Shown here: positions 2,952-19,287 of the stretch, piece by piece
Layout: the number at the start of each line of letters is the position of its first letter
How positions within the stretch are numbered: position 1 is the stretch's first letter
IMG/VR virus record: IMGVR_UViG_3300032093_012631
Span: 1-24,013 of that record
Direction: 5' to 3' (one strand)
Length of the DNA: 24,013 bases
From: a virus
Position numbers and translations under genes: made by a program
The notes under the pieces: generated by a model
The model's input: the letters and a program-made list of their open reading frames with translations, nothing else
Databases searched by the model: none
What the model was told of the DNA's origin: nothing

Positions 2952-2976
2952 TATAATTCTCCTGATAACTACAATA

Positions 2977-3005
2977 ATTTTGTAGTATGTGTAATGATGC
3001 GTCAA
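2977..3005 (-). promoter_or_regulatory. sigma70-like promoter candidate for queE
   Basis: On the minus strand, TTGACG (3005-3000, 5 of 6 to consensus) is followed after 17 bases by CAAAAT (2982-2977, 4 of 6). The start point would fall near 2970, leaving a short leader with AGGAG before the TTG start of queE. The 3006-3057 gap between the GT17-like gene and this box shows no convincing terminator. Confidence 0.4.
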
Positions 3006-3057: not shown

Positions 3058-3936
3058 CTAGGAGCGGTGTGCATGGATAATGTCCTTGCTATAAAAGTCT
3101 AAAGTTGAAAATTGAGTCTCTGGCAAAATAAATGAGGTGTATTTTTGTCTATTATCTGTTAGAGATTGAGGAAAGTAATCATCTACTACAACTGTTTCAA
3201 AATGCTGCCCTGGACCTTCATGCGAACTTTTGGAAACAATGAATTTGAAAATGTCAAAGTTTTCAATTATTTCAGGCACGTTTGCCTCAGTATGAGCAAA
3301 ACTTTGTAGTTTTAAAATTCCATGAGTGTTGTCGCCCAAGGAACTCCAATGCCATCCTCCGTGGGCAATGAAGCGTGTGCTTGCAGGCAAAGGGGTCCAC
3401 GGAAAGGTGAAAGACCTTTCCGTTTGTGGATCAGTAAAAATTTGTGCTTTTGTTACGATAATATTTGGTCCGGCAATCCAAGGCATTGCTAGATTGTTTG
3501 CTATCCGCATATAATTAAATTTATAAAGATACATTGGGCAGAATAAAATCCAGCGTGCGTTAGATGTATCTTTTTGGCAATCTTGCACACAAGTCGGTCG
3601 TGGAATCTCATCAACATCGCTAGTAATAATGAGATCATTGGGCTGCATATCCCAAAGACCTCGCATCAGGCTCTGGCGTTGATGGTGCTCACGTTCCCAT
3701 GCATTGTTTCTGGTAAGCCCGCTAGGCATGTCAGAAACAACAATGTGTCTAATTTTTGTTGCGAATTTTGAGAAAAGATGCTGATTTTCATAAAAATATA
3801 AGGGTTTGTGTTGTCCACTATGAGTAAAGGGTGACTCTGCAATTACAAAAAAATCCACCTTATCCCACAATGTTTCGAGCCTTAACTCTAGGAGCATAAG
3901 TTCATTGTAAAAAGTAAAGCAATCATAAATTTTCAT
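3058..3936 (-). CDS. GT17-like glycosyltransferase
   Basis: The N-terminus (KIYDCFTFYNELMLLELRLE) followed by FFVIAESPFTHSGQHKPLYF matches glycosyltransferase family 17, related to MGAT3-type beta-1,4-N-acetylglucosaminyltransferases. This GT-A family occurs in bacteria and giant or phage viruses. The nucleotide-sugar/metal motif is SDVDEIPR, with Asp107, Asp109 and Glu110. WPF-like aromatic segments and HGGWHWSSLG later in the protein also fit the family. The 292-aa length is normal for a viral, soluble version; there is no membrane anchor. An AAGGA ribosome binding site lies about 10 bases before the ATG. It ends the sugar cassette, just upstream of queE. Donor and acceptor cannot be read from the sequence. 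They could be a virion glycan, host surface polysaccharide or modified DNA. Confidence 0.8.
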   Translation of the reverse strand: MKIYDCFTFYNELMLLELRLETLWDKVDFFVIAESPFTHSGQHKPLYFYENQHLFSKFATKIRHIVVSDMPSGLTRNNAWEREHHQRQSLMRGLWDMQPNDLIITSDVDEIPRPTCVQDCQKDTSNARWILFCPMYLYKFNYMRIANNLAMPWIAGPNIIVTKAQIFTDPQTERSFTFPWTPLPASTRFIAHGGWHWSSLGDNTHGILKLQSFAHTEANVPEIIENFDIFKFIVSKSSHEGPGQHFETVVVDDYFPQSLTDNRQKYTSFILPETQFSTLDFYSKDIIHAHRS

Positions 3937-3965
3937 AAAAACAATTTCCTTATGCTGAAGCGTTA

Positions 3966-5390
3966 TTATCTTCTAGCAATAATACCATCAACTTTAATAA
4001 ATTCCACAGTGTAACCTGTTTGCCGAAAGATTTCTGCCAGCTGGTTCCTCTTTGCATTGATAACATCTTCCCAAGATTTATGGGCAGTAGCTACAGCATG
4101 AACTTCCACGAACCATGTATAAACCTTATCTTTTACAGCGTTAACTTTTGAAAATGTAAGTGCATCTATCTCACCGCCTTCAATGTCACATTTTACCAAG
4201 TCAACCCGATCCCAAGCTGATTGCTCAATCAAGGTAGGTAAATCTACCGCAGGTACTACAATTTTTTGGTCTGTTTTGTACATAAAGCCATTCATCTGTG
4301 TATTTTGTTGGTTTACATAAAACTCGGCGTTGCCACAAGTGTAGCCCAATGCAAGAGGTAGGCATTGAATATTGGAGTAAGGGGCTGTTAATTTTTGTAA
4401 TACAGAAAAAGTATCTGGACTGGGTTCTAGAGCTATAATTTTTTCTGCATGTGAGTGCATATATAAGGCAAAAAGGCCAATATTGGCACCAATGTCTAAA
4501 ACACGCATTTTTGCGTGCGTAGACAATAGTTGATCGTAAAATCTTACATTATTTATTTCATTTAATGTGTGATCTGTATAATTGGCGCCATTTTGCCAAA
4601 AGTGCTGCAATTCAGGATCAAGTTCTATCCGAACTTCTGTTCGATCGCTGGCAATCAAACTTATAACAGGCATCATATTATTATTATCCTTTTGTAATTG
4701 AATTTTTTGTTGTTTATCTACAATAGTAGAAATTATTGCAACCCTATGATCAAGATCCAATCCTGGTAAATGTAACAGCCAGTCGCCATCTTCCCAACTC
4801 CCTACACTATTCAATTTATCTACAGGTTTATGAACATATGGATACAGTTGGTAGTTGTAGCTGTTCATATGCTTTTGGGGAACAATAGTGATTGTGTTAT
4901 ACCACCACGGAGGAACAATCAAATTCTCACCTGTAGGATAACTGGAACTGCCAGTATCGGGCCAACTACATAAATGGTTTATTGCCCATTGATCTGAATC
5001 CCACTTGCCTTGGGATGCAAATTCTAAGGCCAGAATAGCATGGAGAAACCTGCGAGTGTCTTCACTATTTTTTAGTAAAATACTTCCTGTATTAACACCA
5101 TTTGAATCAGTTGAAAGTATTACATTTGAGGATTGGATTATTCTATCTTCAATTTTGACATCAAAATTTGTTATTACTGAGTCACAATCAGTGTACCATA
5201 GCCACATTATCTCAGGATTTGAGTCCAAAATAGATAAGGCATATTTGAATCTATCAAAATTGGACGAATAATCGTCGAACAAAAATGCCTTATAATTATG
5301 GGCTTCAGCGTACAACTTTTTGTTTTTATCCCATGTCAAGTAGCTTAAGTCTTTAAGACTGGAGTTTATGACTGAAAAAATTGCATACAT
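3966..5390 (-). CDS. two-domain protein: GT34-like glycosyltransferase fused to FkbM methyltransferase
   Basis: Residues 1 to about 230 look like a GT-A galactosyl/mannosyl-transferase of the GT34 (GMA12/MNN10) type. WYTDCDSVITN contains the DxD metal motif (Asp68-Cys-Asp70), NTGSILLKNS lies near 100-109, SDQWAI near 132 and GDWLLHLPG near 202-210. Residues from about 250 to 474 form a class I SAM methyltransferase of the FkbM family: VLDIGANIGLFALY (motif I, about 297-310), IALEPSP (acidic end of strand 2), VDLVKCDIEGGEIDAL (396-411, the FkbM hallmark) and FVEVHA (427-432). FkbM enzymes usually O-methylate sugars. One protein may therefore add a sugar and cap it with a methyl group. A TAGGA ribosome binding site precedes ATG 5390. 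The domain calls are secure; the acceptor is unknown. Confidence 0.82.
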   Translation of the reverse strand: MYAIFSVINSSLKDLSYLTWDKNKKLYAEAHNYKAFLFDDYSSNFDRFKYALSILDSNPEIMWLWYTDCDSVITNFDVKIEDRIIQSSNVILSTDSNGVNTGSILLKNSEDTRRFLHAILALEFASQGKWDSDQWAINHLCSWPDTGSSSYPTGENLIVPPWWYNTITIVPQKHMNSYNYQLYPYVHKPVDKLNSVGSWEDGDWLLHLPGLDLDHRVAIISTIVDKQQKIQLQKDNNNMMPVISLIASDRTEVRIELDPELQHFWQNGANYTDHTLNEINNVRFYDQLLSTHAKMRVLDIGANIGLFALYMHSHAEKIIALEPSPDTFSVLQKLTAPYSNIQCLPLALGYTCGNAEFYVNQQNTQMNGFMYKTDQKIVVPAVDLPTLIEQSAWDRVDLVKCDIEGGEIDALTFSKVNAVKDKVYTWFVEVHAVATAHKSWEDVINAKRNQLAEIFRQTGYTVEFIKVDGIIARR

Positions 5391-5404
5391 CTCTGGTTAT
5401 CCTA

Positions 5405-6196
5405 CTAAAAATATTTGCCATTTGCTCTTGGAAACCAACAGTCGCCCCCTGCGCTATTTGGCGTCGGAGTAGCAGTCTGTTCATTTTGTTCACAGAGATA
5501 AGGTTTTCCTAAACCAATAGCAATAGCAAGGGCACTGCTTTGATTGCCAATAAATAGTTCACAGCCTTGAATTACTCTACACAACTCCAATAAGTTTGCT
5601 GTAGGGAAAAAATCAATTTGTGTTTTGAATACGCTTTCAAAGCTCTCATGTTCAGAGGCAGACCCCACAAATACTGCCTGCTCACACAAGTTGTTCTGAA
5701 GTAGTTCAAACCATTTGGGATGTGCCTCTGCTTGCAGATATCGAGAAGTCCTATTAACAACTAGTGATTTGCCTGGTATTATTATGGGATCTACTGGCGT
5801 TAACCAAGGTTCATGCAATAGCTTGTGATTTATAATAGGATCTGCTATGTTCCATCCCAAACTTAAGCCATAGACCTGAGTTTGATTACCTTGCCATCCA
5901 TGTGGTAAAATCCATTGCCAATTTTTTGAAGCCAAATCAATGTCAATTACTTCTGATTGCCACAGTTCTACACTGTGCAGGTAATCTTGGGCTTTTAACA
6001 ACGGATGTATTTGCTGGAAATCATCAAGTGTAAGCCTATTTGGATGTGGGTTGCCTCTCCACCCCAATACTTTCGTACAAAACTCATCAAGATAATTCAA
6101 TCGCACATAAAGATTACCACCACCAAGCATTTTTATAATGCATAAACTATAGATAGTGTCGCCAAATGTTGTGTAATTTAAAAAATTCAAAGGCAT
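5405..6196 (-). CDS. GT9/heptosyltransferase-like GT-B protein
   Basis: The 263-aa protein begins with a strand-loop-helix (LNFLNYTTFGDTIYSLCIIKML), as in ADP-heptose:LPS heptosyltransferases, where a GD(L/A) turn opens the first Rossmann fold. The second half has SLVVNRTSRY, then QAVFVGSASEHESF, then CELFIGNQSSALAIAIGLGKPYLCEQ. That order matches the donor-binding half of GT9 enzymes (the D-G-SG..HiAaAlgkP region). The N-terminal half is shorter than in cellular GT9 enzymes (about 320-350 aa). No ribosome binding site is visible. The ATG starts two bases after the upstream methyltransferase stop, suggesting coupled translation. It could also be a degenerate GT-B protein without catalysis. 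The fold is likely and the substrate unknown. Confidence 0.6.
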   Translation of the reverse strand: MPLNFLNYTTFGDTIYSLCIIKMLGGGNLYVRLNYLDEFCTKVLGWRGNPHPNRLTLDDFQQIHPLLKAQDYLHSVELWQSEVIDIDLASKNWQWILPHGWQGNQTQVYGLSLGWNIADPIINHKLLHEPWLTPVDPIIIPGKSLVVNRTSRYLQAEAHPKWFELLQNNLCEQAVFVGSASEHESFESVFKTQIDFFPTANLLELCRVIQGCELFIGNQSSALAIAIGLGKPYLCEQNEQTATPTPNSAGGDCWFPRANGKYF

Positions 6197-6198
6197 TT

Positions 6199-6783
6199 TT
6201 ATGCTTTTTTGTGTAACACTATCTCAATAGCAGATTCGCTAACCGGATTAAGTGTTTGATCAATATCTGTTTTGGCATAATCGAAATGGGAATCTAACAG
6301 CTCCAGCTTCAAGATTGATAGTTCAGGAAAATTCCTGAAAAAATCCGTGCAGTTGATGCTCACAGGACACCAGCTATGTGTTTTTTGAATGGTCCAGGAG
6401 GTTTTGTGATCACCATTGTAGCGACTGGGCCAATTTTTTTGTTCATAAATGTCTTCATCAGGAACAGTGATAATCATATGCCCTTTGGGTTTCAATATTC
6501 TAATCCAATTTTGCATTGCTATGTAAGGATCTACAATATGTTCCAAACAGTGGCTACTGATAATAAAATCATAAGATTCATTAGGAACGTTTTGCATATA
6601 TTGCGCATCACCATCACCCCAATCCCAAGCCCTTACGTGTGAAATTTTTGGAAAAAAAGTAGTGTAATTCAGCAGACTATCTGATCCTGCACCAATATCT
6701 ATACCATTCCCTACAAAATATCGGGTAATAAATCGGCTGTCAGATAGTCTTCGAATTATAGATTTGCTAGTTTCGTGTGTCAT
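6199..6783 (-). CDS. class I SAM-dependent methyltransferase (Methyltransf_11 type)
   Basis: A compact 194-aa methyltransferase. GIDIGAGSDSLL (about 27-38) is the SAM-binding glycine loop, and AWDWGDGDAQYM follows with an acidic patch. YDFIISSHCLEHIVDP (71-86) is the typical motif II with the C-L-E-H signature, and ILKPKGHMIITVPDED (96-111) is motif III. The family methylates small molecules, sugars, lipids or quinones and does not reveal its substrate. GGAG with 7 bases of spacing precedes the ATG. The first 17 bases overlap the end of the 151-aa gene. Its position among glycosyltransferases suggests methylation of a sugar or of the same glycan, but this is inference. A role on a modified base cannot be excluded. 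Confidence 0.8.
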   Translation of the reverse strand: MTHETSKSIIRRLSDSRFITRYFVGNGIDIGAGSDSLLNYTTFFPKISHVRAWDWGDGDAQYMQNVPNESYDFIISSHCLEHIVDPYIAMQNWIRILKPKGHMIITVPDEDIYEQKNWPSRYNGDHKTSWTIQKTHSWCPVSINCTDFFRNFPELSILKLELLDSHFDYAKTDIDQTLNPVSESAIEIVLHKKA

Positions 6784-7222
6784 TTTGGTTCTCCAAACTG
6801 TTGTTTAACGCCTGCCAAGTAAGCTTTCCTTCTCTGTGCTCAATCTCTATTTCCAAGGCTGCAATCAATTGCTCTTGCGTCATGCTCCGGGCCAACCTCA
6901 AGCACTTTTCAACTCCTCGAAGATAGCTTCGAGCTATGGCCACTTTCCCAGCAGAGGAGATGTCAATGCAGTTTTGCAGACTTTGGACCAAGCGAGATGC
7001 ACCCTCATTGGGTTTGTTCAAGTGCCACTTCACCTCACCTTGCACGCTGATGCTGAAGATGGTTTCGCCAAAGTCATTGTTGATTTGGAGTGCAGTAGTT
7101 GGTTGGTGTATATGTATAGCTAAATTGCTACCAACAGTGTATCCAGCTCCTGGGTTACCTAAAGAAACACTGGTGATTGCTCCATTACTGACTCCAGTGA
7201 CTTTGAAAGTGGTATTGCTCAT
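6767..7222 (-). CDS. hypothetical phage protein, 151 aa, with N-terminal GAGYT-type motif
   Basis: Not recognised as a named family. The first 50 residues contain VTGVSNGAITSVSLGNPGAGYTVG, a motif type often repeated in phage structural or adhesin proteins (…NGGSGYT…). Here it occurs once. The rest appears mixed, with a beta segment (ETIFSISVQGEVKWHL) and then helices with many Arg and Glu (residues about 85-145). The ATG overlaps the previous stop as ATGA, so translation is probably coupled. The ribosome binding site is weak. The 3' end overlaps the methyltransferase start by 17 bases. It may be a small virion protein sitting inside the sugar cassette. Function is unknown. Confidence 0.7.
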   Translation of the reverse strand: MSNTTFKVTGVSNGAITSVSLGNPGAGYTVGSNLAIHIHQPTTALQINNDFGETIFSISVQGEVKWHLNKPNEGASRLVQSLQNCIDISSAGKVAIARSYLRGVEKCLRLARSMTQEQLIAALEIEIEHREGKLTWQALNNSLENQNDTRN

Positions 7223-7500
7223 GAGATAGAGCTTTTCAAAAAAATTAGGAACTTATCAAAATCCTCTTGACTCCAAAACAGAAACCGCCAGGTTTGATAG
7301 TTTAACTTTTCGGCAGAGAAAATCTGCTTCACGTTTTCCTCGCACCATGCTTGCAGAAACTCAGCTGATGGCTCTGTGCGCTGTGCTGTGGGAGTGTACA
7401 TCTGTTCAAATGTCAACTCACATAGATGATGCAGCATAACTGACTTTACATCAGTTGGTAACGAGCCCCACTCGCGATAACGAGGAATGCTAATCTGCAT
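7219..7500 (-). CDS. hypothetical protein, 93 aa
   Basis: No family recognised. The protein is aromatic-rich and probably helical (TDVKSVMLHHLCELTFEQMY, AEFLQAWCEENVKQIF, YQTWRFLFWSQEDFDKFLIFLK). It has no signal or membrane segment. The ATG at 7500 lies one base after the folE stop, with AGGA about 9 bases upstream. Its TGA overlaps the next ATG. Tight coupling on both sides makes it a real member of the operon. Phage genomes often carry such a small protein paired with a GAGYT protein, but I cannot name a role. Confidence 0.7.
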   Translation of the reverse strand: MQISIPRYREWGSLPTDVKSVMLHHLCELTFEQMYTPTAQRTEPSAEFLQAWCEENVKQIFSAEKLNYQTWRFLFWSQEDFDKFLIFLKSSIS

Positions 7501-7501
7501 C

Positions 7502-8218
7502 TCAGCTCATCCTGGAGATGATGTTGAAAAACTCCTGCTTGATGTGCGGGTGATCTCTGAGCACACCGCGCATCACCGAAGTTGTCATATCAGACGAGTG
7601 TTCCCTAACACCTCTGTTGGTCATACAACCATGTTCGGCTTGAAGCAGCACTGCTACACCTTGTGCCTCAGTTACTCGCTCAATCTCATCAGCAATTTGA
7701 ACGGTTAGCTCTTCTTGAATAGTGGGACGGCTGCTGATCCAGTCAACAATGCGATTGAACTTGCTGAGACCAATTACATTTGTTCCCGGAAACACTCCAA
7801 TATAGCAGCGACCCTTGATGGGCTGAAAGTGATGTGCACAAGTGCTTCGCACTGTAATGGGACCAGTTACATACAGCTCATCATAAGTTTGGCTATTGGG
7901 AAATGTTGTGATCTTTGGCGGGGGGCAGAAGCGTCCACTGAAAATCTCAGTAACAAACATTTTGGCCACTCGTTGTGCTGTTTCCTGTGTGTTGTGGTCA
8001 TTGTCCACATCAATCACCAGGCTGCGAAGCACAGCTTCCATATTGCCTGCCACCTCGTTGATCAGCAGCTCAACTTCACCTTCGCTCACAAACTTGGAGA
8101 TGTTGTCATTGCTGAAATAGCGTTGCCCTGCCTTCTGTAGACGCTGTGTGATCTGTTGTGAAATGCTGCACTCGCAGCCTGTGCTGCTGCCATCATCGAT
8201 GTTGAATTTGCGGCTCAT
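7502..8218 (-). CDS. folE: GTP cyclohydrolase I (FolE)
   Basis: Catalyses GTP to 7,8-dihydroneopterin triphosphate, the first step of both folate and 7-deazaguanine synthesis. Counting from ATG 8218 (238 aa), the zinc site is visible: Cys127 and His130 in STCAHHFQPIKG and Cys198 in QAEHGCMTNRGV. The family strings GLSKFNRIVDW, RPTIQEELT and SDMTTSVMRG follow in the correct order. The usual CEHH motif is CAHH here. The start at 8218 has AAGGA 7 bases upstream. A longer frame to 8266 adds 16 residues with no ribosome binding site and is rejected. It lies directly downstream of dpdA, so in this genome the deazaguanine route is the likely purpose. Cytosolic; normally a homodecamer or tetramer-of-dimers type. 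The identification is firm. Confidence 0.95.
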   Translation of the reverse strand: MSRKFNIDDGSSTGCECSISQQITQRLQKAGQRYFSNDNISKFVSEGEVELLINEVAGNMEAVLRSLVIDVDNDHNTQETAQRVAKMFVTEIFSGRFCPPPKITTFPNSQTYDELYVTGPITVRSTCAHHFQPIKGRCYIGVFPGTNVIGLSKFNRIVDWISSRPTIQEELTVQIADEIERVTEAQGVAVLLQAEHGCMTNRGVREHSSDMTTSVMRGVLRDHPHIKQEFFNIISRMS

Positions 8219-8288
8219 GTATAGTTCCTTGTTTCTTATAGTGAGTATGATCAGAGAGTTTGCCAAAGTCTATCAGATAAGGTGAGAT

Positions 8289-9947
8289 TCACTCAAACTC
8301 ATCAAAGTCCATAACGATATTGTTGTCGGCATTCATGCCTGTGATTTTAGCCAACATAGCTGCATGCTTATCAATCAGTTGCATGGGCTTTTCACTGGTT
8401 AAGATTTCTTCACAAAGTCCGCCAGCAAATTCAATCAAGTCTTCGCTGATGTGATGTTTCCTTTCCTCCTGTGGTAAGTCTTGCATTGCACATGCATGTT
8501 GAATGGCATCAATGTGAAGTTCAACGTTGTGGCTCATGCCCAGCACATAGCTGAGGCCATCCATGCTGCTGGGCCATTTGACTTGATATTTCTCATGTTC
8601 CTGGAACTCTTTCTTGCCCCAATCGAACATGCCACTGCCATGCTCCTTGTGCTCATGCATAAGATAGTGCTTGTATTCGTCACTGTAGCGAAACTTTTCA
8701 CCGTGAACAGCTTCCAAACTCTGCTTGTAGATTTCACTTTCCAGTTCTTTTTGAGTGAAGGCTTGCTTTTTGAAAACAAGATCTTCATAGCCTTTGACAC
8801 AGATATCACCAATTGTGACCCTTTTGCCAATAGAGCTTTCACGAACAGCATGCTTGTGGTTGTGACGATTGATCCAGTCCTGAAACAATTCAGTACTACC
8901 TTTGAGTTCTTTCTTGTCAGGCAAGGCGTTGTTTTTATAGGCAATGCTTTGTGGACTCACTTCCCAACTATAGTAGATGTTTCCTTTAGCAACGTTAACA
9001 AAGGGGCTTGCAGCATCATAACTCAAGGTAGCCCTACTGTTGATGTGCTTTCTCCACACTCGTTGGAGAGTTGTAAGAGCACAACCTGCCTTGATTTTGC
9101 CGTTACCTAGATAATGGATCCAGTCTCGATTATCCAAATACTTGCCATCTCGCATGATGATAATTCGTCGAAGATTGATGGCAAAATTGCTGGCTTGCAC
9201 ATTACTGAATGCCCAAGTTTCAAAAGGAAGATCCTTCACAACGTCCCACCAAATATCACCCTCTTCTTGATTGCGACCCTGCAAAACGTTCAAAAATTGA
9301 GTATCGCCCTCACGCCTATTCCTAATGAAAAACTCGTGGTTTTCCATGCTGCTTTCAAGACAGTCGCGAAAGTTTTTAACTCCAGGATGTAAGTTTTCGC
9401 CTGTAATGGGATCATTACCAAACTTCAACAAACTGCCTGTGGGAACATCCAATACCATGCTGTAATCGCAACTGTGTTCCAGCCACCTCAGGATTTTCAT
9501 CCTAATGGCGTCTTTGTCTTTCATCCAGTCTTGGCTTGTTTGATTGTCTTTCTTTTGCCAAGGCCATTTGAGAACACCAGTGGCAATCTGATAACCGCCA
9601 CTGTCTCCTACAATCACTGTTGCATTTTTGTCTCTCTTTTGCACCATGGCTTCTTGGATATCACTTTGAGCTGGATCCCAATAGCTGTGCCCACTGCTGT
9701 ATAGTGCAGTGGGGTAATAAAATAGATTGGTGTTGGGTTGCAGGAAATCCAAATCTTTCAACCCATTTGGCAACCCACTGGGCACACGATCACCAAGTTG
9801 GCTCACTAGTCTCACATAGATCGCACTGATACTCGGTAAGAATACAGCATAGTCCTGGTTGGTGGTCCACATGTCTCTACCCGAAACTGGTTTCATGTTT
9901 TGGTAGATTTTGTGTAAATGTGGGTTGGGGCTGGAAAGTTTTGTCAT
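8289..9947 (-). CDS. dpdA: DpdA-like tRNA-guanine transglycosylase homologue (DNA 7-deazaguanine insertion)
   Basis: A 552-aa protein with the TGT fold signature. GDSGGYQIATG (114-124) corresponds to the DSGG(Y/F)Q substrate loop, LDVPTG (166-171) and FLNVLQGRNQEEG (218-230) match the vQG motif, and IHYLGNGK (277-284) matches the GvG region. LSYDAASPFVNVAKG follows, whose Asp311 is the likely nucleophile, aligned with the DcvxPTR Asp of bacterial TGT. Phage and DpdA proteins replace PTR by a small-residue/SP loop, as here. The DpdA family exchanges guanine in DNA for preQ0 or derivatives. The C-terminal 200 residues are family-specific and highly charged (HEHKEHGSG). There is no CXCXXC zinc cluster of canonical tRNA TGT. 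It lies between a glycosyltransferase (9-base gap) and folE. The fold is very secure; the DNA rather than tRNA target is inferred from the phage context. Confidence 0.88.
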   Translation of the reverse strand: MTKLSSPNPHLHKIYQNMKPVSGRDMWTTNQDYAVFLPSISAIYVRLVSQLGDRVPSGLPNGLKDLDFLQPNTNLFYYPTALYSSGHSYWDPAQSDIQEAMVQKRDKNATVIVGDSGGYQIATGVLKWPWQKKDNQTSQDWMKDKDAIRMKILRWLEHSCDYSMVLDVPTGSLLKFGNDPITGENLHPGVKNFRDCLESSMENHEFFIRNRREGDTQFLNVLQGRNQEEGDIWWDVVKDLPFETWAFSNVQASNFAINLRRIIIMRDGKYLDNRDWIHYLGNGKIKAGCALTTLQRVWRKHINSRATLSYDAASPFVNVAKGNIYYSWEVSPQSIAYKNNALPDKKELKGSTELFQDWINRHNHKHAVRESSIGKRVTIGDICVKGYEDLVFKKQAFTQKELESEIYKQSLEAVHGEKFRYSDEYKHYLMHEHKEHGSGMFDWGKKEFQEHEKYQVKWPSSMDGLSYVLGMSHNVELHIDAIQHACAMQDLPQEERKHHISEDLIEFAGGLCEEILTSEKPMQLIDKHAAMLAKITGMNADNNIVMDFDEFE

Positions 9948-9956
9948 ACTCTTATC

Positions 9957-11045
9957 TTACTTTACCTGAGTTGATCGTGCAACTGCATTGATGATGTTTT
10001 CAAACATTACATCAGCTGACAGATATCGTTGCAACAGAACTTTCTTTTGCTTTTCCAATTGTCTGCTGAACTTTTTGGGATGATTTAGCCTATGCTGAAT
10101 AAATTCCAGCAACTGTTGCTTGTGTGTTTGATAGTTGTCCCAACTTTGTGTCCACTGGCTGGGATAGAGAAAATCAGGATGATACATCTCGCTGTAACTG
10201 CAACGATTGGGCAGCACTGGAATCACATCAGCAAGCACAGCTTCCATCACACTGATGCCCAAATTTTCATGCAAGCTACAGGAAAAGATCACTTGACTTT
10301 CTGCCAGCTTTTTATAATAGCTGCCTTTGTCAAGGTTCATCTTTTGTGTAATGCACCAAGGATGTTTCATGCTGTTGGAGAGGTCTTCAGCAATTTCAGG
10401 CTGCTTATCTGGATTGTATCTGTGAGGCCAGATGACGCCTTGCTTGCGTTCTCTACTCTCTTGCATGATGTTATGCATGTGTTCAACAACAAGGTTGTGT
10501 GGTTGCCCGCTTGTTTTCGCCTTGCTGTGATACTCACTGCTGATGCCCAAGTTTTTCAAAAACATTTGTTTGTGAAAATCAGTTGCATACCAATTTTCAT
10601 CGCAAGCATGAAACAGTGCTTGCTCAGCAAGCCAAGGCCACGGTTTGCTCATTTTATATCCAAGGATATCAGTGGGATCGTAACTTCCAGCATGCCAGAT
10701 AGCTTGTAGATTCCAATTATATCCCATGAGATCATTCATATACTTGACTTGCAGAATCACTGGATTCCAAGCATCAGTGAACAAATGCACATCGTTTGGA
10801 GTTGTTTCTCCAGCATCATGTTTGTTGAGAAACTCAACCAGTTGAGTGCTTTTCCATCTGTTGGTGTCACTAAAATTCAAAAATGCACCTGATGACGTGC
10901 TAGTAGTGTTTTGAACACCATCCAGTTGAATAACTGTGGCCTTATTTCCCACCATTTCTTGGAGCCGCAGGGGAATCTCCTTATACCATTGTTCTGAATA
11001 ACGGCTGTCTAATGGCTCAATAGGCCATACAAATACATTGGGCAA
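9957..11045 (-). CDS. GT-B (GT4-like) glycosyltransferase resembling tRNA-queuosine mannosyltransferases
   Basis: The C-terminal half shows a retaining GT-B donor site: GVIWPHRYNPDKQPE, then YYKKLAESQVIFSCSLHENLGISVMEAVLADVIPVLPNR followed by SYSEMY. Both strings resemble the GTDC1/DUF3524 family that mannosylates queuosine in tRNA (pattern WxHRWxxDKxPE … HExFGxxxxEAVxxGxxPxxP…YPE). The same pattern is shared more loosely by GT4. The N-terminal half contains LFTDAWNP and AIWHAGSYDPTDILG, unusual for cellular members. I set the start at TTG 11045 (362 aa). AAGGA is 10 bases upstream and the promoter candidate at 11082-11110 lies just before it, whereas a start at 11090 would sit in the promoter spacer. 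It heads the transcript containing dpdA and folE. The glycosyltransferase call is strong; the queuosine-type acceptor is a hypothesis. Confidence 0.78.
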   Translation of the reverse strand: MPNVFVWPIEPLDSRYSEQWYKEIPLRLQEMVGNKATVIQLDGVQNTTSTSSGAFLNFSDTNRWKSTQLVEFLNKHDAGETTPNDVHLFTDAWNPVILQVKYMNDLMGYNWNLQAIWHAGSYDPTDILGYKMSKPWPWLAEQALFHACDENWYATDFHKQMFLKNLGISSEYHSKAKTSGQPHNLVVEHMHNIMQESRERKQGVIWPHRYNPDKQPEIAEDLSNSMKHPWCITQKMNLDKGSYYKKLAESQVIFSCSLHENLGISVMEAVLADVIPVLPNRCSYSEMYHPDFLYPSQWTQSWDNYQTHKQQLLEFIQHRLNHPKKFSRQLEKQKKVLLQRYLSADVMFENIINAVARSTQVK

Positions 11046-11081
11046 TTTTGTTGTGTCCTTCAAATATTGTCTTGTAGAGAT

Positions 11082-11110
11082 AGTGTACAAAACACAGAAA
11101 TTTTTGGCAA
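11082..11110 (-). promoter_or_regulatory. sigma70-like promoter candidate for the glycosyltransferase-dpdA-folE transcript
   Basis: Minus strand TTGCCA (11110-11105, 5 of 6), a 17-base spacer and TACACT (11087-11082, 4 of 6). Transcription would start near 11075, about 30 bases before the TTG start. The remaining intergenic DNA (11111-11221) holds no gene I can support. It has an imperfect stem (TTGAG…CCAG paired with CTGG…CTCAA) with no T-tract, so I do not call a terminator. Confidence 0.45.
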
Positions 11111-11659: not shown

Positions 11660-11878
11660 CTAGTTTTTCTGACAGTAGCGCAAGCCACACTCAGCTCCGC
11701 AGAATTCAATTCTTATTCCTAACACATCTCGAAAGTATGTGGGCCAGATGTCTCTTCCTACCAGTGTCACAACTCCTGCATCATCACAAATATATCGAGG
11801 ATAGCCTTCCAACTTTGCCTCGCATTCAGCACAAATCAAGGTGGGAAAATTTGTTGGGTCTTGTTTCTTGAGCCTCAT
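11660..11878 (-). CDS. small zinc-ribbon-like protein, 72 aa
   Basis: Seven cysteines in 72 residues, arranged as CAEC near the N-terminus, a single Cys in YICDD, then CGAECGLRYC near the C-terminus. This suggests one or two structural zinc sites. The sequence between (VTLVGRDIWPTYFRDVLGIRIEFCG) is not from a family I can name. ATG 11878 overlaps the stop of the Agt-like gene as ATGA. It lies between the lipid cassette and the QueD-like gene, and its partner is unknown. It could be a small adaptor, a transcription-related zinc finger or a metal chaperone; none is supported beyond the cysteines. Confidence 0.68.
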   Translation of the reverse strand: MRLKKQDPTNFPTLICAECEAKLEGYPRYICDDAGVVTLVGRDIWPTYFRDVLGIRIEFCGAECGLRYCQKN

Positions 11879-12867
11879 TTTGGGACCAACGTATCAACAA
11901 AAATATCGGCTGTTTTTTTCCAACTCCATTTTTTACTACCCGCAAAAACAGTTTGTCGACATAATGTCAAACATTGCGAGATGGCTGCATCAATGTCATG
12001 GTTTAGCGAACCAGTAACGCCATCATCTACAACATCTATAGGTCCCTGCACCGGAAAAGCTGCAACCGGCGTACCAACACTCATGCTTTCAATCATAACT
12101 AACCCGAATGTATCACTTTTGCTTGTGAAAACAAAGCAGTCAGCGTTTTGATATTGCTGCACCAATTGCTTACCACTCAATTGCCCAGTAAATGTAACCC
12201 AAGGATATGTCTTTTGTAACCTTTTGAGATCCGGACCATCACCTACGCATACTAGATTGTATTTTTCTGGCGATAAGCTACAAAACACCTCTAAATTTTT
12301 CTCAGCACTGACTCGGCCAACACTCAATAATGTTGGCTTGTCGGAGCACTTGCGGTCATTGAATTGAAACAATTGGGTGTCTACTCCCCGTGACCATGTA
12401 ATAGCCTGCGATAGGCCAAGAGACACCATCTCTCTTTGCATAGTAGGTGTGTTAACCAAAGTTGCTGCGCTATTTTGATGAAACCATTTGAGATACCTCA
12501 TTGTTTTGTTGGCCGGCACGCCAAATTTTTCCTGGAGATAGTGGTCCCATCTTGTGTGAAAGCTGGTTGTGTAGCGCCAATTTTTGTTTTGAAAAAATTG
12601 CCTAGCAGTCAAGCCCAACACACCTTCTGTACAAATGTGCAGGTGTGTAGGTTCATACGCCTCTATTCTTTTTGTCAAATTCCAAAAATTCAATGGTATG
12701 CGAGCACCTGGATATACCAATGCAGGCATCGACATCATTTGATCAGGAGTGATGTGGATGAGATTATATATGCCTCGAGAAAACAGTTGTTTTTTCACTT
12801 CATTCATTGTAGTCACAACACCATTTACTTGATCTTGACAGTTGTCGTCCACAATCACAAGTCTCAT
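11875..12867 (-). CDS. Agt-like GT4 glycosyltransferase (diacylglycerol glycolipid synthesis predicted)
   Basis: 330 aa from ATG 12867, chosen because GGAG lies 6 bases upstream and the ATG overlaps the plcP stop (ATGA). The N-terminus has QVNGVVTTMNEV (12-23) and LVYPGARIPL. TEGVLGLTARQFF (80-92) and TSFHTRWDHYLQEKFGVP (101-118) match the acceptor half of the alphaproteobacterial GT4 group that glycosylates diacylglycerol. The donor half has WSRGVDTQLF (158-167), LLSVGRVSAEKNLE (180-193), CVGDGP and SDTFGLVMIESMSVGTPVAAFPVQGP (251-276, with the EX7E pattern). In marine bacteria the Agt enzyme adds a sugar to diacylglycerol made by PlcP. I avoid the symbol agt because in T4 it means the unrelated DNA alpha-glucosyltransferase. 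Family match is strong; lipid acceptor is inferred from the plcP neighbour. Confidence 0.8.
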   Translation of the reverse strand: MRLVIVDDNCQDQVNGVVTTMNEVKKQLFSRGIYNLIHITPDQMMSMPALVYPGARIPLNFWNLTKRIEAYEPTHLHICTEGVLGLTARQFFQNKNWRYTTSFHTRWDHYLQEKFGVPANKTMRYLKWFHQNSAATLVNTPTMQREMVSLGLSQAITWSRGVDTQLFQFNDRKCSDKPTLLSVGRVSAEKNLEVFCSLSPEKYNLVCVGDGPDLKRLQKTYPWVTFTGQLSGKQLVQQYQNADCFVFTSKSDTFGLVMIESMSVGTPVAAFPVQGPIDVVDDGVTGSLNHDIDAAISQCLTLCRQTVFAGSKKWSWKKTADIFVDTLVPK

Positions 12868-13652
12868 TGAATACTCCATTTGTTTTTCATCATCATACTT
12901 TTGGTTTGAGTATCGTAAACCAAAAGTTCAATTGAGCCATCAAAATTTTCAACCAAGGCTGAAACAGTTTCACAAAAGTCACCACAATTCATATAAGCAA
13001 AGCCGTCATCAAATGTTTTCAATGCTGCGGAATGAATATGTCCGCAAATCACCCCGTGGAACGCCTCATCTCGTGCATACTGAATCAAATGCTGCTCATA
13101 TTTGGTAATAAATGCAACTGCTTGTTTGGTATTAGTTTTGAGAAAGCTACTGAGGCTCCAATAGTCCTTTCCAAAAAATTTACGAGCATAGTTCAAATAA
13201 GTGTTAACCCATAGCACAAAGCTGTGTGCCTTGTCTCCCAATATGCTCAACCATTTGTGGTATCTAATTACTCCATCAAACAAATCCCCGTGTGTTACCA
13301 AAAATCGTTGTCCATGCACAGTGTAGTGCTCAAAAGCATTGCCCAGCTCAATGTTTCCAAAAGTATGCATATCAGGTAACCATGCTCGGAGAGATTCGTC
13401 ATGATTGCCCAACACATATCTAACCCGTGTGCCTCTTTTGGCAGCAGTAAGCAGTCGTCGTACCACATTGCTGTGAGTTTGTGGCCAGAACTTACTGCTT
13501 TTTAATTTCCACAAATCAAAAATATCACCAACAAGATACAGATTTTGACAGGTGTTGTGCTTCAAAAATTCTGTAAGGAGTTCGGCTTGACATGCTCTAC
13601 TGCCTAAATGGATGTCACTTATGAAGATACTGCGATATTTGCTGTTTGGCAT
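12864..13652 (-). CDS. plcP: PlcP-type metallophosphoesterase (predicted phospholipase C; often annotated LpxH-like)
   Basis: 262-aa calcineurin-like phosphoesterase with all metal motifs: SDIHLGS (Asp13, His15), GDIFDLW (Asp43), GNHDE (Asn83, His84), THGD (His121) and GHIH (His205, His207). It has the PlcP-group extras: CQAELLTEFL after motif I, WPQTHSNVVRRLL, WLSILGDKAHSFVLWVNTY and WSLSSFLK, and a C-terminal YMNCGDFCETVSALVE. This group resembles LpxH but is known from phosphate-starved marine bacteria as PlcP, which cleaves phosphatidylglycerol or phosphatidylethanolamine to diacylglycerol. AAGGG with 5 bases of spacing precedes ATG 13652, which overlaps the CYTH stop as TGATG. The Agt-like gene follows in ATGA overlap, the same partner as in bacteria. 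It is soluble or peripherally membrane-bound. A UDP-diacylglucosamine hydrolase is the alternative. Confidence 0.83.
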   Translation of the reverse strand: MPNSKYRSIFISDIHLGSRACQAELLTEFLKHNTCQNLYLVGDIFDLWKLKSSKFWPQTHSNVVRRLLTAAKRGTRVRYVLGNHDESLRAWLPDMHTFGNIELGNAFEHYTVHGQRFLVTHGDLFDGVIRYHKWLSILGDKAHSFVLWVNTYLNYARKFFGKDYWSLSSFLKTNTKQAVAFITKYEQHLIQYARDEAFHGVICGHIHSAALKTFDDGFAYMNCGDFCETVSALVENFDGSIELLVYDTQTKSMMMKNKWSIQ

Positions 13653-14182
13653 CAGAGCCCTTTCAGATTCGTCAAAACTTTTTTGTAGTTACCCAAATTT
13701 TTATTTTGGAACCTCTTGTCATTACCATCAATCCAGCGCCAAAAACTGGGCTCAAGTAATGGGTGGACCTCAGGCAAGTCCATCTCAAACTCAGGCATTT
13801 CCACTTCAGCCATGCTCAAGTAGATGTCGCCACTTTTGGGATTTTTGAAAAAATCCACGTCCCACCTATTCAAACCTTCTTGAAACTTGCAGCGAGTTTT
13901 GTGGATTACGGGCTTGGCAATCAAAAACAATTTGTGATAATCGTGGATTGAAATTTCTGTTTCAATTTCGACAGTATTGCCAGTTACCTTTGTCTTGAAA
14001 GTGAACCAGTGGGTTTCAGCATCACCACTGTGGGGAACCACATGCCTAATTCTTGCACTTTTGTTGATATAACCCTGTGTAATTTCAACGGTTTGCACAT
14101 TGGGGTGACGCTTGAGATAGCGTAGTAACTCTTGAGGCTTTTCTGGCCGTAATAGGAGTTTACGTTCATGTTCAACTGGCAT
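13652..14182 (-). CDS. CYTH-domain (triphosphate tunnel metalloenzyme) protein
   Basis: The N-terminus EHERK (Glu4, Glu6, Lys8) is the ExExK motif defining the CYTH superfamily. Further tunnel residues alternate as expected: RIRHV (44-48), FTFKTKV (60-66), VEIETEIS (71-78), KTRCKF (95-100), WDVDFF (107-112) and AEVEMPEFE (125-133). Members hydrolyse tripolyphosphate, thiamine triphosphate or make cyclic AMP; 176 aa is the size of a stand-alone triphosphatase. GGAGG with 5 bases of spacing precedes the ATG, immediately behind the terminator at 14196-14225. Expression may therefore need terminator read-through, because I see no promoter in the 55-base gap. It is translated together with plcP (1-base overlap). 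A phosphate-related role would match that neighbour but is not shown by the sequence. Confidence 0.85.
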   Translation of the reverse strand: MPVEHERKLLLRPEKPQELLRYLKRHPNVQTVEITQGYINKSARIRHVVPHSGDAETHWFTFKTKVTGNTVEIETEISIHDYHKLFLIAKPVIHKTRCKFQEGLNRWDVDFFKNPKSGDIYLSMAEVEMPEFEMDLPEVHPLLEPSFWRWIDGNDKRFQNKNLGNYKKVLTNLKGL

Positions 14183-15212: not shown

Positions 15213-15848
15213 TTAGAGGTCAAACATAACCTTTGTAATATAGTGAGCAATAGTTGCAGGTATGTCAACAACAAAGGGACACCATAATCTCATTTCATGA
15301 CCTTTTTGGAACAGAGTAGCAACACTATCCAAATCACTGCGCCCTTTGTAAGCAACATAAGCAGTGTGTTCAGGCACATGTTCCCCAATGAAAATTTGAC
15401 TGCCTTGATTGTCAAACTTCCGCAGCACACCAGCTGAATACCACCTGCCTACCTTCGTTCCAGTGTTTTGTTCATCTTGATACAGTTGATCAGTAGGTAT
15501 TTTCAAGAGTATATTGCTGTTTGTGAATATGAGATTGCCACATCCTCTCTTGTTTTTATGACCCAAAAGAGAAGCTTGCCTTCGTAGTGCAAATGGCAAG
15601 CCATCATATTGCTCTACAACAGATCCTGCTTGTGAAAACAACAGATCTTCTGCTTCACAAATGCTGTCAACTTCGTGAAAGTCTTGAGTTATAGTGTTCA
15701 GGCACAAATACCCAGTTAAGAATACCAAAGTGCTGGCGGTTGTGGGATGAGAATTGCTCCATGTGCTTGCTGATGCCAACGGATAGGGCTTGTAACGCAA
15801 GAGTTGAGCCCTCTCTTCTTTTGAGATTCCAAAGAGGGGGCTCTGCAT
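15213..15848 (-). CDS. hypothetical phage protein, 211 aa
   Basis: Not recognised. It starts at ATG 15848, nine bases after the preceding stop, with AAGAG about 7 bases upstream. It appears globular and mixed alpha/beta. Segments include STLVFLTGYLCLNTITQDF (a hydrophobic core strand, not a clear membrane helix), LLGHKNKRGCGNLIFTNSNILLKIP, TKVGRWYSAGVLRKF and a C-terminal MRLWCPFVVDIPATIAHYITKVMF. Three cysteines show no motif. It lies between the Pro/Lys-rich protein and the 66-aa protein in the replication transcript. A replication or nucleotide role is only a position-based guess. Confidence 0.72.
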   Translation of the reverse strand: MQSPLFGISKEERAQLLRYKPYPLASASTWSNSHPTTASTLVFLTGYLCLNTITQDFHEVDSICEAEDLLFSQAGSVVEQYDGLPFALRRQASLLGHKNKRGCGNLIFTNSNILLKIPTDQLYQDEQNTGTKVGRWYSAGVLRKFDNQGSQIFIGEHVPEHTAYVAYKGRSDLDSVATLFQKGHEMRLWCPFVVDIPATIAHYITKVMFDL

Positions 15849-16249: not shown

Positions 16250-19003
16250 TCAAAAGCTGAACATACTGTCAAAAGTTTCGTTGTTTTTGGCATCCTCTAG
16301 ATTCCAGTGTAGCACACCCAATAAGTTTTCCAATTTTTTGTCCAAAATTGTTGCTTCCATCAAAGCGTCGTCAAAGGGCAAGGATTTGAACCAGTCAGGT
16401 AAGTAGAGTTGATCTACTGGATATGCAACAGAAGTCATGCCCAATGGGTTGGATCGCAGTTTACACACAATGACTTTTTGGCCATCTTGAATACGCATTG
16501 AACCATAGTCGTTGTAAATGTCACACAACAAGTTCCAATTTAACGAGGCCAAAACATGCCCAGGAATGGTTTTTCTTTTAACTGGGTCCTTTTTGAGATC
16601 AACACTTTCTTGTGCTTTTTTGATCATACCATACTGTGTTAAGTTGTTGACCCTTTTGGGGCTGCCTTTGGCCCAACTGGGCCATTTACTGAACTCAGTT
16701 CGGAACTCTTTGATGCGATTGAAAATTGAGTCTTTGTCAACCTCAGTCAAAACCAACGTCAAAATCTCGCTCAAAAACTCTTGAACTGGCTTGGGTGTGT
16801 CACTTCTCTTTAAGTCCAAGCCCATTGCTTTGATTTCACCAGGCTTGCCGTCAACATCCTTTCTCTTGCCTTCTTTGTCATAAATCATCACAGCATATCT
16901 CTTCTTGGTAATGAACAAGCCATGGCTTGCAACCAGTTCACGACCAGCTTTGATAACGCTACGAGATTCAGGAACATTGAATGCCTGTTTCATAAATCCA
17001 GGAAAGCTTTGGTTAGTGATGTCTGCAACTTGATCATACAGTTGTACCACTGCTTCACGACTCCAATCAAAGCTTTTGAAGTCTTCAAGCTGGCTCATTA
17101 CAGGGTATGCGCTAAAATAAATGCTGTCGGTGTCGCCATATATGACAGCATCACCTTTGTAGTGATATTTCCCTGATATTACCTCATTGATCTTACTACC
17201 CATGTGTTTGACGATACATCTACCTGTTAAAGTAGTACTTTGTGCAATACGGTTGTCAAACCACGATGAGCTAGAATTTCCGATAGCTCCATAAAGTGAA
17301 TTTAGCAAAATTTTCTTAATCAACTGCCTTCTGTCATAAAAATCAGCTTTTTCTTGATACTCACTCTTCTTAGAGGGATCAGGTTCTTCATCAGCTTTTT
17401 TGAAACATGCTTTGGCTTCTGCCTGCAACTCCTTTCTCTCACCATACCAGCGAGCCAGCAAGCCTGGTACCACACCCTCCTTGTTGAGATCAAAAATGGT
17501 GCCATTGGCACTGAGAGTCATTTGCTTTTTGGGATTTTCAAAAATCCATTGATACAGTTCGTCAGCACTGAGTTCCACAGTGGTGCCGTCTTCAAAGTCC
17601 ACAGTCAGCATAACCATTTCCCGATTCATCACTTGGTTATACTCAATAATGCCAAACATCTCGTTCCAACTGTCAGCAAAAGTGCGCTTTTCCTTTTGCA
17701 TCCTGTGTTGAATCAAACGATCATTACCCACAGGGCGGATTTGCCCTACTACTGTTTCCTTGCTCATGTTCAAGCTACGAATAGCACTGGGATATAGACT
17801 GTTGATGTCTACGCCGCCAATCCACTTGTGCATGCCTTCAACTGGGTCAGCCACATATGCACCAGCAATACCAGTGGGCTCAATGTCTTCGCCGTCACTG
17901 TCCTTCTGAACTTCTGCCTCACGACGCCGAATGGGTATGCAGAGACCAAGATCATGTGCTTCATTGGTAATGGCATTGTCAATAAGTTGCACTGAGCCCA
18001 ATGTTGTTTGAATCAATACACCGTTGGTGTGTGCAAGATCATTGGAAAGATCAATAAATTTCAATTTGCGATCAATCTTCACCAACAGCATGACGTCTTG
18101 CCTGTTATAGGCAATGAACTTTTCAAAATCTTCGTTGTAGAGCTTGTCCAAGCTGCCTTCATACGCAACTTTTTTCTCGCCCACCTCATACTCGCCCACA
18201 AAGTCCAGTCGATATGAATGCATTTCATGGTAGGTGTGTTTTCTGTATAGTTGGAGGTAATCCAAGTGCACTCTGCCCACTAGATCAAATGTAACAGTGG
18301 GCTTGCCATAGCTTTCATACTCTCTTTTCTTGGGAAATTTATTCCAGAGACACAGTCGTTTAGTGTGCTCCTTACTCAAAATTTGAATGATACGATTGTG
18401 CAAATAGGGAATATCATACCCCTCTGAATTCCAACCTGTGAGAACATCTGCATCCTCAATCAGTGTGAGAAACACATCCAAGAGTTCAGCTTCACTGCTG
18501 CATAGCACAGTGTCTTCAAATTTGTCCACAATATCAGAGGCTTGGTCAACTGTGAGTGTTTTGGGCTTGAGAACCAAGGTGAAGTTTTTGTCCAGCCAAC
18601 TTAGATACACCGAAATAGCTGTTACGGGATTGAATGCTTCATCAGCTGAGCTGAATCCACGGTCTGGATCATAATCTACTTCAATATCAAAAAATCCCAC
18701 ATGCAATTGTGGACTTGCTGCATTTTTGTAATGTTCATAAAAACACCGGAAAATGGGATTCATGTCACTTTCATATTGCTGTGTTTTTGGAACTTGTCTG
18801 CACTCTCTTTGAAACTCTTCCCATCGGGTGGTTTCAAATTTGTCCAATCGTTCACCATAGATGCTGGTATATTTGCCACGCTCGCTGGGAAAATACATCA
18901 CATACTTGCTGGGATATGTGTTGAACACTCTTTTGTGATTCACACGCTCCACCACATGAATACAGTTTTTGTCTTTTTCCAAAATAGCGTCAACGTATGT
19001 CAT
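16250..19003 (-). CDS. 43: DNA polymerase, family B, with 3'-5' exonuclease (T4 gp43-like)
   Basis: The replicative phage polymerase, 917 aa, similar in size to T4 gp43 (898). From ATG 19003: exonuclease I FFDIEVD (Asp106, Glu108), exonuclease II TGWNSEGYDIPYLHNRI (189-205), exonuclease III IAYNRQDVMLL (297-307). Polymerase motif A is GVDINSLYPSAIRSLNMS (397-414), motif B KKILLNSLYGAIGN (563-576), motif C YGDTDSIYFS (622-631). TKKRYAV further on corresponds to the KKRY thumb-proximal motif. All catalytic acidic residues are present. ATG 19003 has GGAG 6 bases upstream and overlaps the previous stop as ATGA; ATG 19015 is less likely. It is followed by a 62-base gap with the inverted repeat. 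There is no intein or split in this polymerase. Confidence 0.97.
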   Translation of the reverse strand: MTYVDAILEKDKNCIHVVERVNHKRVFNTYPSKYVMYFPSERGKYTSIYGERLDKFETTRWEEFQRECRQVPKTQQYESDMNPIFRCFYEHYKNAASPQLHVGFFDIEVDYDPDRGFSSADEAFNPVTAISVYLSWLDKNFTLVLKPKTLTVDQASDIVDKFEDTVLCSSEAELLDVFLTLIEDADVLTGWNSEGYDIPYLHNRIIQILSKEHTKRLCLWNKFPKKREYESYGKPTVTFDLVGRVHLDYLQLYRKHTYHEMHSYRLDFVGEYEVGEKKVAYEGSLDKLYNEDFEKFIAYNRQDVMLLVKIDRKLKFIDLSNDLAHTNGVLIQTTLGSVQLIDNAITNEAHDLGLCIPIRRREAEVQKDSDGEDIEPTGIAGAYVADPVEGMHKWIGGVDINSLYPSAIRSLNMSKETVVGQIRPVGNDRLIQHRMQKEKRTFADSWNEMFGIIEYNQVMNREMVMLTVDFEDGTTVELSADELYQWIFENPKKQMTLSANGTIFDLNKEGVVPGLLARWYGERKELQAEAKACFKKADEEPDPSKKSEYQEKADFYDRRQLIKKILLNSLYGAIGNSSSSWFDNRIAQSTTLTGRCIVKHMGSKINEVISGKYHYKGDAVIYGDTDSIYFSAYPVMSQLEDFKSFDWSREAVVQLYDQVADITNQSFPGFMKQAFNVPESRSVIKAGRELVASHGLFITKKRYAVMIYDKEGKRKDVDGKPGEIKAMGLDLKRSDTPKPVQEFLSEILTLVLTEVDKDSIFNRIKEFRTEFSKWPSWAKGSPKRVNNLTQYGMIKKAQESVDLKKDPVKRKTIPGHVLASLNWNLLCDIYNDYGSMRIQDGQKVIVCKLRSNPLGMTSVAYPVDQLYLPDWFKSLPFDDALMEATILDKKLENLLGVLHWNLEDAKNNETFDSMFSF

Positions 19004-19287
19004 CCAAAACTCCATAATCCATATAAATTCAAACCTGTGTAAAACAACATCAGGAGGGTCAGTAACTGATTTTTACGCAATATGCTGCTGATGGTCAAGG
19101 ACACACTGCCAAACAACCAAAACAAATACAAAATGTTCAAAGGCATTGCTTGGAATGCCAATAAGGCGGCAGCCAGCATACTGCTGGCTGTTCCTCCAAT
19201 TTCAAAAGCCAAGATAATCTTGGATCCTTGAGGCTTAACCAGCCCTGAAAACGCAAGCCAGAGAGCATGTGACTCTCTAGGAAACAC
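19000..19287 (-). CDS. small membrane protein, 95 aa, PnuC-like appearance
   Basis: Three hydrophobic segments: about residues 32-47 (TASSMLAAALLAFQAM), 48-67 (PLNILYLFWLFGSVSLTISS) and 75-92 (LLTLLMLFYTGLNLYGLW). SSILRKNQ lies between the last two. This alternation is reminiscent of nicotinamide-riboside transporters (PnuC) or SemiSWEET-like half transporters, but I cannot assign either. GTG 19287 overlaps the end of the DsbA-like gene by 11 bases. A downstream TTG (residue 26) is an alternative that keeps all three segments. Its stop overlaps the polymerase start, so the two are tightly coupled in translation. An inner-membrane location is expected. Confidence 0.68.
   Translation of the reverse strand: MFPRESHALWLAFSGLVKPQGSKIILAFEIGGTASSMLAAALLAFQAMPLNILYLFWLFGSVSLTISSILRKNQLLTLLMLFYTGLNLYGLWSFG

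Follow-up and report, generated by a model that had tools for sequence, protein, structure and literature searches.

A phage-borne PlcP-Agt-like gene pair predicted to turn host phospholipids into glycolipids and likely to augment phosphate supply

Phages have a very high phosphorus content, and phosphate is believed to limit their DNA synthesis in waters where it is scarce. The known phage answers to phosphate shortage are uptake, through pstS, and the recycling of host nucleotides. Two overlapping genes in an environmental virus record raise the question of whether the membrane of the host can serve as well. In bacteria, plcP and agt lead to the production of glycolipids under phosphate starvation (Sebastian et al. 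2016, PMC4796936). PlcP yields diacylglycerol from phospholipids and Agt adds a sugar; over a quarter of the isolates surveyed have agt near plcP, and in E. coli the SAR11 agt gene suffices on its own for glycolipid formation (PMC4796936). PlcP, Agt1 and Agt2 of P. aeruginosa form a counterpart system (reviewed in PMC9804370). An earlier note on the viral DNA, made from its letters, had read the two genes as such a lipid-remodelling pair. The enzyme assignments, the viral nature of the contig and the recurrence of the unit in other viruses support this reading, and its purpose is what we infer. We consider it likely that the pair is a phage-encoded cassette for membrane-lipid remodelling, in which head-group phosphate augments the supply for the phage genome.

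The window, meaning the whole stretch of DNA analysed, is IMG/VR virus record IMGVR_UViG_3300032093_012631, with a length of 24,013 bp. Both genes were found on the minus strand where the earlier note had placed them, and their Pfam families were confirmed. The upstream gene (12864..13652) encodes a metallophosphoesterase of 262 amino acids matching Metallophos above its cut-off (E 1.2e-9), a PlcP-like protein predicted to act as an Mn-dependent phospholipase C that converts phospholipid to diacylglycerol. The downstream gene (11875..12867) encodes an Agt-like GT4 glycosyltransferase of 330 amino acids, matching Glycos_transf_1 (E 2.9e-22) and Glyco_transf_4 (E 3.3e-12), a predicted diacylglycerol glucosyl/glucuronosyltransferase. 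The stop of the former and the start of the latter share the ATGA at 12864..12867 on the minus strand. The glycosyltransferase start is better placed at 12867 than at 12879, the first ATG taken by the ORF tool, because of this overlap and because of agreement with a relative 89-93% identical to the window (L002), which has the same 4-bp overlap (6001-6789 / 6786-7778). The overlap suggests that the two genes are translationally coupled.

Overlap in fact extends further than had been noted. On one side, an ORF of 176 amino acids (13652..14182, minus strand) has a stop that overlaps the PlcP start as TGATG; on the other, the glycosyltransferase stop is overlapped as ATGA by the start of a Cys-rich ORF of 72 amino acids (11660..11878, minus strand). 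The 176-residue product has an N-terminal EHERK resembling the ExExK motif, on which motif alone it may be a CYTH/triphosphate-tunnel enzyme; searches of Pfam, NCBIfam and PDB returned no match. It was seen only in close relatives of the window (91% identity) and is therefore no constant part of the plcP-glycosyltransferase unit.

Homologues in two other phages are annotated as LpxH-type enzymes, and several lines of evidence separate the window protein from that family. It scores 44.5 bits on NF003743 (cut-off 134) and 33.5 bits on TIGR01854 (cut-off 190.35). As a control, the LpxH model was searched in 12 bacterial genomes holding plcP; a true LpxH was present in 11 of them, with 232-337 bits on TIGR01854, and the detected plcP paralogues reached 44-57 bits. 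A profile built from phage PlcPs reverses this order, giving 316-368 bits to the bacterial plcP paralogues and at most 39 bits to the LpxHs. All PlcP rows of the alignment, phage and bacterial, carry GNHD (GNHDE in the window), and all 12 LpxH rows carry GNRDF. In a maximum-likelihood tree of 62 proteins, LpxH and PlcP split with support of 100/100, and all 21 phage PlcPs form one clade (100/99) inside proteobacterial PlcP. The earlier note had assigned the enzyme to the PlcP group and proposed phylogeny as the check; the low scores, GNHD and the split bear the assignment out, with no grouping with LpxH.

The dimetal site of the window PlcP is complete (D13, H15, D43, N83, H121, H205 and H207), and these seven ligands are invariant across 34 phage and bacterial PlcPs. 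The AF2 model is only fair (pLDDT 81). LpxH is both the nearest PDB fold and the nearest solved structure by sequence, which is expected because LpxH is a paralogous family. The two have in common the metal-site motifs D.H, GD, GN, H and GH.H, whereas the window enzyme lacks the GNRD signature, falls into another clade and stays far below the curated cut-offs. It is accordingly described here as PlcP-like, with predicted hydrolysis of phospholipids to diacylglycerol. The only bacterial label inside the phage PlcP clade belongs to a 3.7-kb contig of a 'Hyphomonas' metagenome bin (L102, JARFRJ010000437.1); from this position, the contig probably stems from a phage and was misassigned to a bacterial bin. 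The long-branch PlcP/LpxH-like relative of phage S-SRM01 (L018) lies outside the phage clade and was not used as support. A human fecal 'Bacteriophage sp.' record (H2/L019, MT836169.1) was not counted as phage; by eye it carries ORFs resembling tyrosyl-tRNA synthetase, polyphosphate kinase and exopolyphosphatase and, although it comes from a phage collection, it is probably a bacterial contig.

The motifs QVNGVV, SFHTRW and SDTFGLVMIE, from which the earlier note had recognised an Agt-type enzyme, are all found in the window glycosyltransferase. GTcp, a characterised SAR11 enzyme, loses all or nearly all activity on mutation of its active site (PMC8231724). In an alignment, 13 of 14 such positions are identical in the window protein: G16, G82, G85 and H104 keep the same numbers, while R163, R190 and K195 of GTcp correspond to R160, R185 and K190, D256, T257, F258 and G259 to D252, T253, F254 and G255, and E264 and W320 to E260 and W316. 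The remaining position, T162, is S159. The catalytic dyad His104-Asp256 is thus matched by H104 and D252, and the diacylglycerol-site residues Thr162, Arg163 and Trp320 by S159, R160 and W316, two identical and one conservative. The UDP-sugar motifs GRVAXEKN and FPSXTDTFG appear as GRVSAEKN and FTSKSDTFG, each departing slightly from the consensus.

Comparisons with other glycosyltransferases agree. A phage profile gives 335-422 bits to the glycosyltransferases neighbouring bacterial plcP and 3.6-29 bits to WaaB, WaaG, WcaC and WcaI of E. coli, and the window protein is 32-44% identical to the former against 17-19% to these four GT4 enzymes, the only outgroup used. Since the E. coli proteins are too distant to root the tree, it was built unrooted; phage and bacterial proteins split with support of 99/92, a split present in 100% of bootstrap trees. 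The AF2 model has a GT-B fold (pLDDT 92), with MshA, BshA and PimA among its PDB neighbours. The Agt assignment is therefore supported, the protein standing apart from the E. coli polysaccharide and LPS GT4s and sharing key residues with a characterised Agt-type enzyme, so that it is predicted to transfer a sugar from a UDP-sugar to diacylglycerol. One subclade of phage glycosyltransferases (L024, L026, L039, L045, L059 and related) carries Glu at the catalytic Asp position, in WETFG. In GTcp, a change of this Asp to Glu removes more than 90% of activity (PMC8231724), and the enzymes of the subclade may be poorly active or take another sugar. The window protein, unlike these, retains Asp.

That the locus belongs to a virus is indicated by a T4-type family B DNA polymerase within the window itself (16250..19015, minus strand; phrog_262, 667 bits), which is 46-48% identical to its closest counterparts, in Agrobacterium phage Atu_ph07 (490 kb) and Sinorhizobium phage Phosso (469 kb). 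The same plcP-glycosyltransferase locus is common to seven other records, with PlcP 89% and the glycosyltransferase 92% identical to the window, and the records of close relatives reach 141-329 kb. A T4-type polymerase was found in all five of the large close relatives tested, and a terminase in the largest (329 kb). With the polymerase in the window and relatives of this size, the cassette sits in a bona fide phage genome and away from contig ends. The earlier note had allowed that the contig might prove to be a bacterial chromosome; the polymerase, the viral relatives and the terminase of the 329-kb record speak otherwise. A weak match to the T4 major capsid protein Gp23 (15213-15848, minus strand; E 4.6e-4) falls under Pfam's cut-off.

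Several other genes of the window, all on the minus strand, are of separate interest. A QueE-like radical SAM protein (2067-3005) and GTP cyclohydrolase I, FolE (7502-8266), are accompanied by a protein of 552 amino acids (8289-9947) that shares 30% identity with proteins from Pseudomonas jumbo phages of the PA5oct type; it gave no match in a family search and looks DpdA/TGT-like by eye. By sequence, these three likely form a 7-deazaguanine set for DNA or tRNA modification. An envelope-type cluster (3058-6783 and 9957-11090) contains a GT17-like protein, a GT34-like protein fused to an FkbM methyltransferase, weak GT9-like and GT4-like ORFs, and a methyltransferase.

The earlier note had proposed searching other viral contigs for the same two-gene unit, and it recurs widely. 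A pattern scan with PlcP alignment confirmed at least 568 PlcP relatives in IMG/VR, a number that includes contigs unchecked for phage hallmark genes. The glycosyltransferase stands directly downstream of plcP in 32 of the 82 loci inspected, some of them near-duplicates. A terminase and/or a T4-type polymerase was found in 17 of 48 longer records tested. The adjacent pair occurs together with a T4-type polymerase in five lineages (G001-G005, G013, G021, G024 and G028) and together with a terminase in G023. In G013 and G021 it sits between the terminase and polymerase genes, and therefore inside the phage genome. Mosig and several other PlcP-bearing phages have no Agt anywhere in the record.

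The distances of PlcP and of the glycosyltransferase among phages are correlated (r=0.74, 0/2000 permutations). In the comparison of the window with L002, dN/dS values are 0.03 for plcP, where dS is near saturation, 0.08 for the glycosyltransferase and 0.06 for the polymerase. Both genes are under purifying selection and, given the correlated distances, are maintained and travel together. They probably descend from a proteobacterial plcP-agt pair and now form phage clades of their own, and for this reason the pair is probably well established among viruses and not newly acquired from the current host.

Phosphate-related genes accompany the unit in related phages. The gene immediately upstream of plcP in L026/L027 is pstS (equivalog, 410 bits, cut-off 339); in L023, pstS lies directly downstream of the glycosyltransferase; and in the isolated SAR11 phage Mosig it is the divergent neighbour of plcP. 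The 329-kb relative of the window (G004) has a pstS-family gene far from plcP, and the next relative (L022, 70%) has phoH two genes upstream. Altogether pstS was present in 5 of 27 records tested, with one record only in the window's own group. A crude scan, which was likewise negative upstream of most of the bacterial plcP genes, detected no Pho-box-like site above the shuffled background upstream of the window unit.

Because the sequence features of both steps are present in the phage pair, conversion of phospholipid to diacylglycerol and then to glycolipid is its highly probable chemistry. The PlcP-like enzyme would strip the phosphorylated head group from host glycerophospholipids, leaving diacylglycerol, as its family suggests. 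The Agt-like GT4 enzyme, judging from its clade and residues, would use a UDP-sugar to add glucose, galactose or glucuronic acid to this diacylglycerol, and the resulting phosphate-free glycolipid would keep the bilayer intact. As the genes overlap, both enzymes would be made together if that observed overlap couples their translation. Head groups, dephosphorylated by other enzymes, could then add to the phosphate from which a phage genome of at least 300 kb is built. Phages like Mosig, whose records have PlcP and lack Agt, would leave the second step to the host. Roughly 0.66 million phosphates go into a 329-kb genome, and some ten million phospholipids are present in a small Gram-negative cell; at this order of magnitude, replacing half of the phospholipids would release phosphate for several phage genomes. 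Phosphate sparing is proposed because of the phosphate-related neighbours in related phages, and phosphate for phage DNA is the purpose that we hold to be reasonably probable. The fuller account, in which large T4-type phages hold a long-standing PlcP-Agt lineage that turns host phospholipid into glycolipid and feeds membrane phosphate into phage DNA, is one that we favour slightly.

Other explanations differ in whether the locus is viral, in what the enzymes act on, or in what their products are for. Bacterial DNA mis-called as viral, or a recently captured pair decaying as a passenger, is exceedingly unlikely here: mis-called contigs do occur in IMG/VR, and no terminase or T4-type polymerase was detected in many of the PlcP-bearing contigs matched, but the window and each of its five large relatives have the polymerase, the 329-kb relative adds a terminase, both proteins have phage-only clades, dN/dS is low, and a PlcP homologue exists in an isolated SAR11 phage (Mosig), which together rule out bacterial contamination for the window's group. 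A pair that alters lipopolysaccharide, with a lipid A enzyme of the LpxH type and an LPS glycosyltransferase, is very improbable. This reading can draw on LpxH being the nearest solved structure by sequence and fold, and on the homologues of Pelagibacter phage Mosig and Synechococcus phage S-SRM01 being annotated as UDP-2,3-diacylglucosamine hydrolase/diphosphatase; scores far under both cut-offs, the reciprocal profile scores, GNHD in place of GNRD and the separate clade (100/100) led to its rejection, and the glycosyltransferase is unrelated to WaaB, WaaG, WcaC and WcaI beyond generic GT4 features. Measured against these four E. coli enzymes, a polysaccharide glycosyltransferase is not supported either. 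We also regard as improbable a glycosyltransferase that is Agt-type by sequence and acts in the phage on another acceptor, such as modified DNA or a surface polymer. Phage glycosyltransferases often modify DNA or O-antigen, one subclade has the Asp-to-Glu change, and the 7-deazaguanine gene set (QueE, FolE and the DpdA-like protein, 30% identical to PA5oct-type phages) makes hypermodified DNA plausible; set against this, the GTcp residues docked to or required with diacylglycerol are conserved (His104, Arg163 and Trp320, with Thr162 as Ser), and the gene is coupled to, and co-evolves with, that of a diacylglycerol-making enzyme.

The main rival to phosphate sparing accepts the same enzymes and products and places the benefit in a changed envelope, through an altered charge or fluidity of the membrane, exclusion of superinfecting phages, or more favourable conditions for replication or lysis. 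In Ruegeria, phage adsorption is affected by lipid composition (PMC9938194), sensitivity to polymyxin is altered by glycolipids (PMC9804370), and the other glycosyltransferase-like ORFs abundant in the window (GT17, GT34 with FkbM, weak GT9 and GT4) are such as surface modification would call for. The small number of records with pstS, and the Pho box not found upstream of the window unit, point the same way. Even so, we judge an envelope benefit unlikely, since pstS adjoins plcP or the pair in three distinct phage lineages, and since several phages keep PlcP without the glycosyltransferase, a pattern more in keeping with phosphate release than with a specific glycolipid product.

Phosphate sparing by lipid remodelling is itself known chemistry; its viral, clade-forming version across several T4-type groups appears to be new. 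The system of Alpha- and Gammaproteobacteria uses the same two families, with agt downstream of plcP and the same catalytic residues in the glycosyltransferase, whereas the present unit is phage-borne, has phage-only clades of both proteins and overlapping genes, and shows no Pho box in the window by the crude scan. Pelagibacter phage Mosig EXVC030M (MT647606) has a PlcP-clade enzyme, 45% identical and in the same phage clade, beside a PstS-like protein; its genome differs in lacking Agt, and the enzyme is annotated as a putative UDP-2,3-diacylglucosamine hydrolase (LpxH-type). The genome announcement leaves the function of this enzyme undiscussed (PMC7892664). Like the pstS and phoH of cyanophages, the pair would place viral genes in host phosphate physiology, but those genes have uptake or unknown roles and not one in membrane lipid turnover. 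In cyanophages, pstS is commoner where phosphate is low (PMC9983427). No description of a phage plcP or plcP-agt unit was found in the open-access literature, a weak form of evidence because preprints and most subscription journals were outside its scope.

If the proposal is true, phages would gain phosphate from a third source, the conversion of membrane phospholipid to glycolipid, which would also change the surface of the infected cell. Remodelling of lipids would in that case be widespread among viruses, a trait so far concealed by LpxH and generic glycosyltransferase annotations, and viral 'lpxH' genes such as those listed in one survey of auxiliary genes (PMC10653327) may in many cases be PlcP, with the current name pointing to the wrong pathway. 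Recurrence of the pair in several large viruses suggests that host-membrane phosphate may go into viral DNA.

Two further neighbourhoods were observed among the viral records. In a 207-kb record with a terminase and a T4-type polymerase (L029), genes for P-II (GlnK) and an ammonium transporter (9130-10693) lie 1.2 kb downstream of the PlcP-glycosyltransferase pair, placing nitrogen and phosphorus genes of a phage side by side. In a 96-kb T4-type phage record (L049), an isocitrate lyase gene (4670-5995; PF00463, 337 bits) lies directly upstream of plcP.
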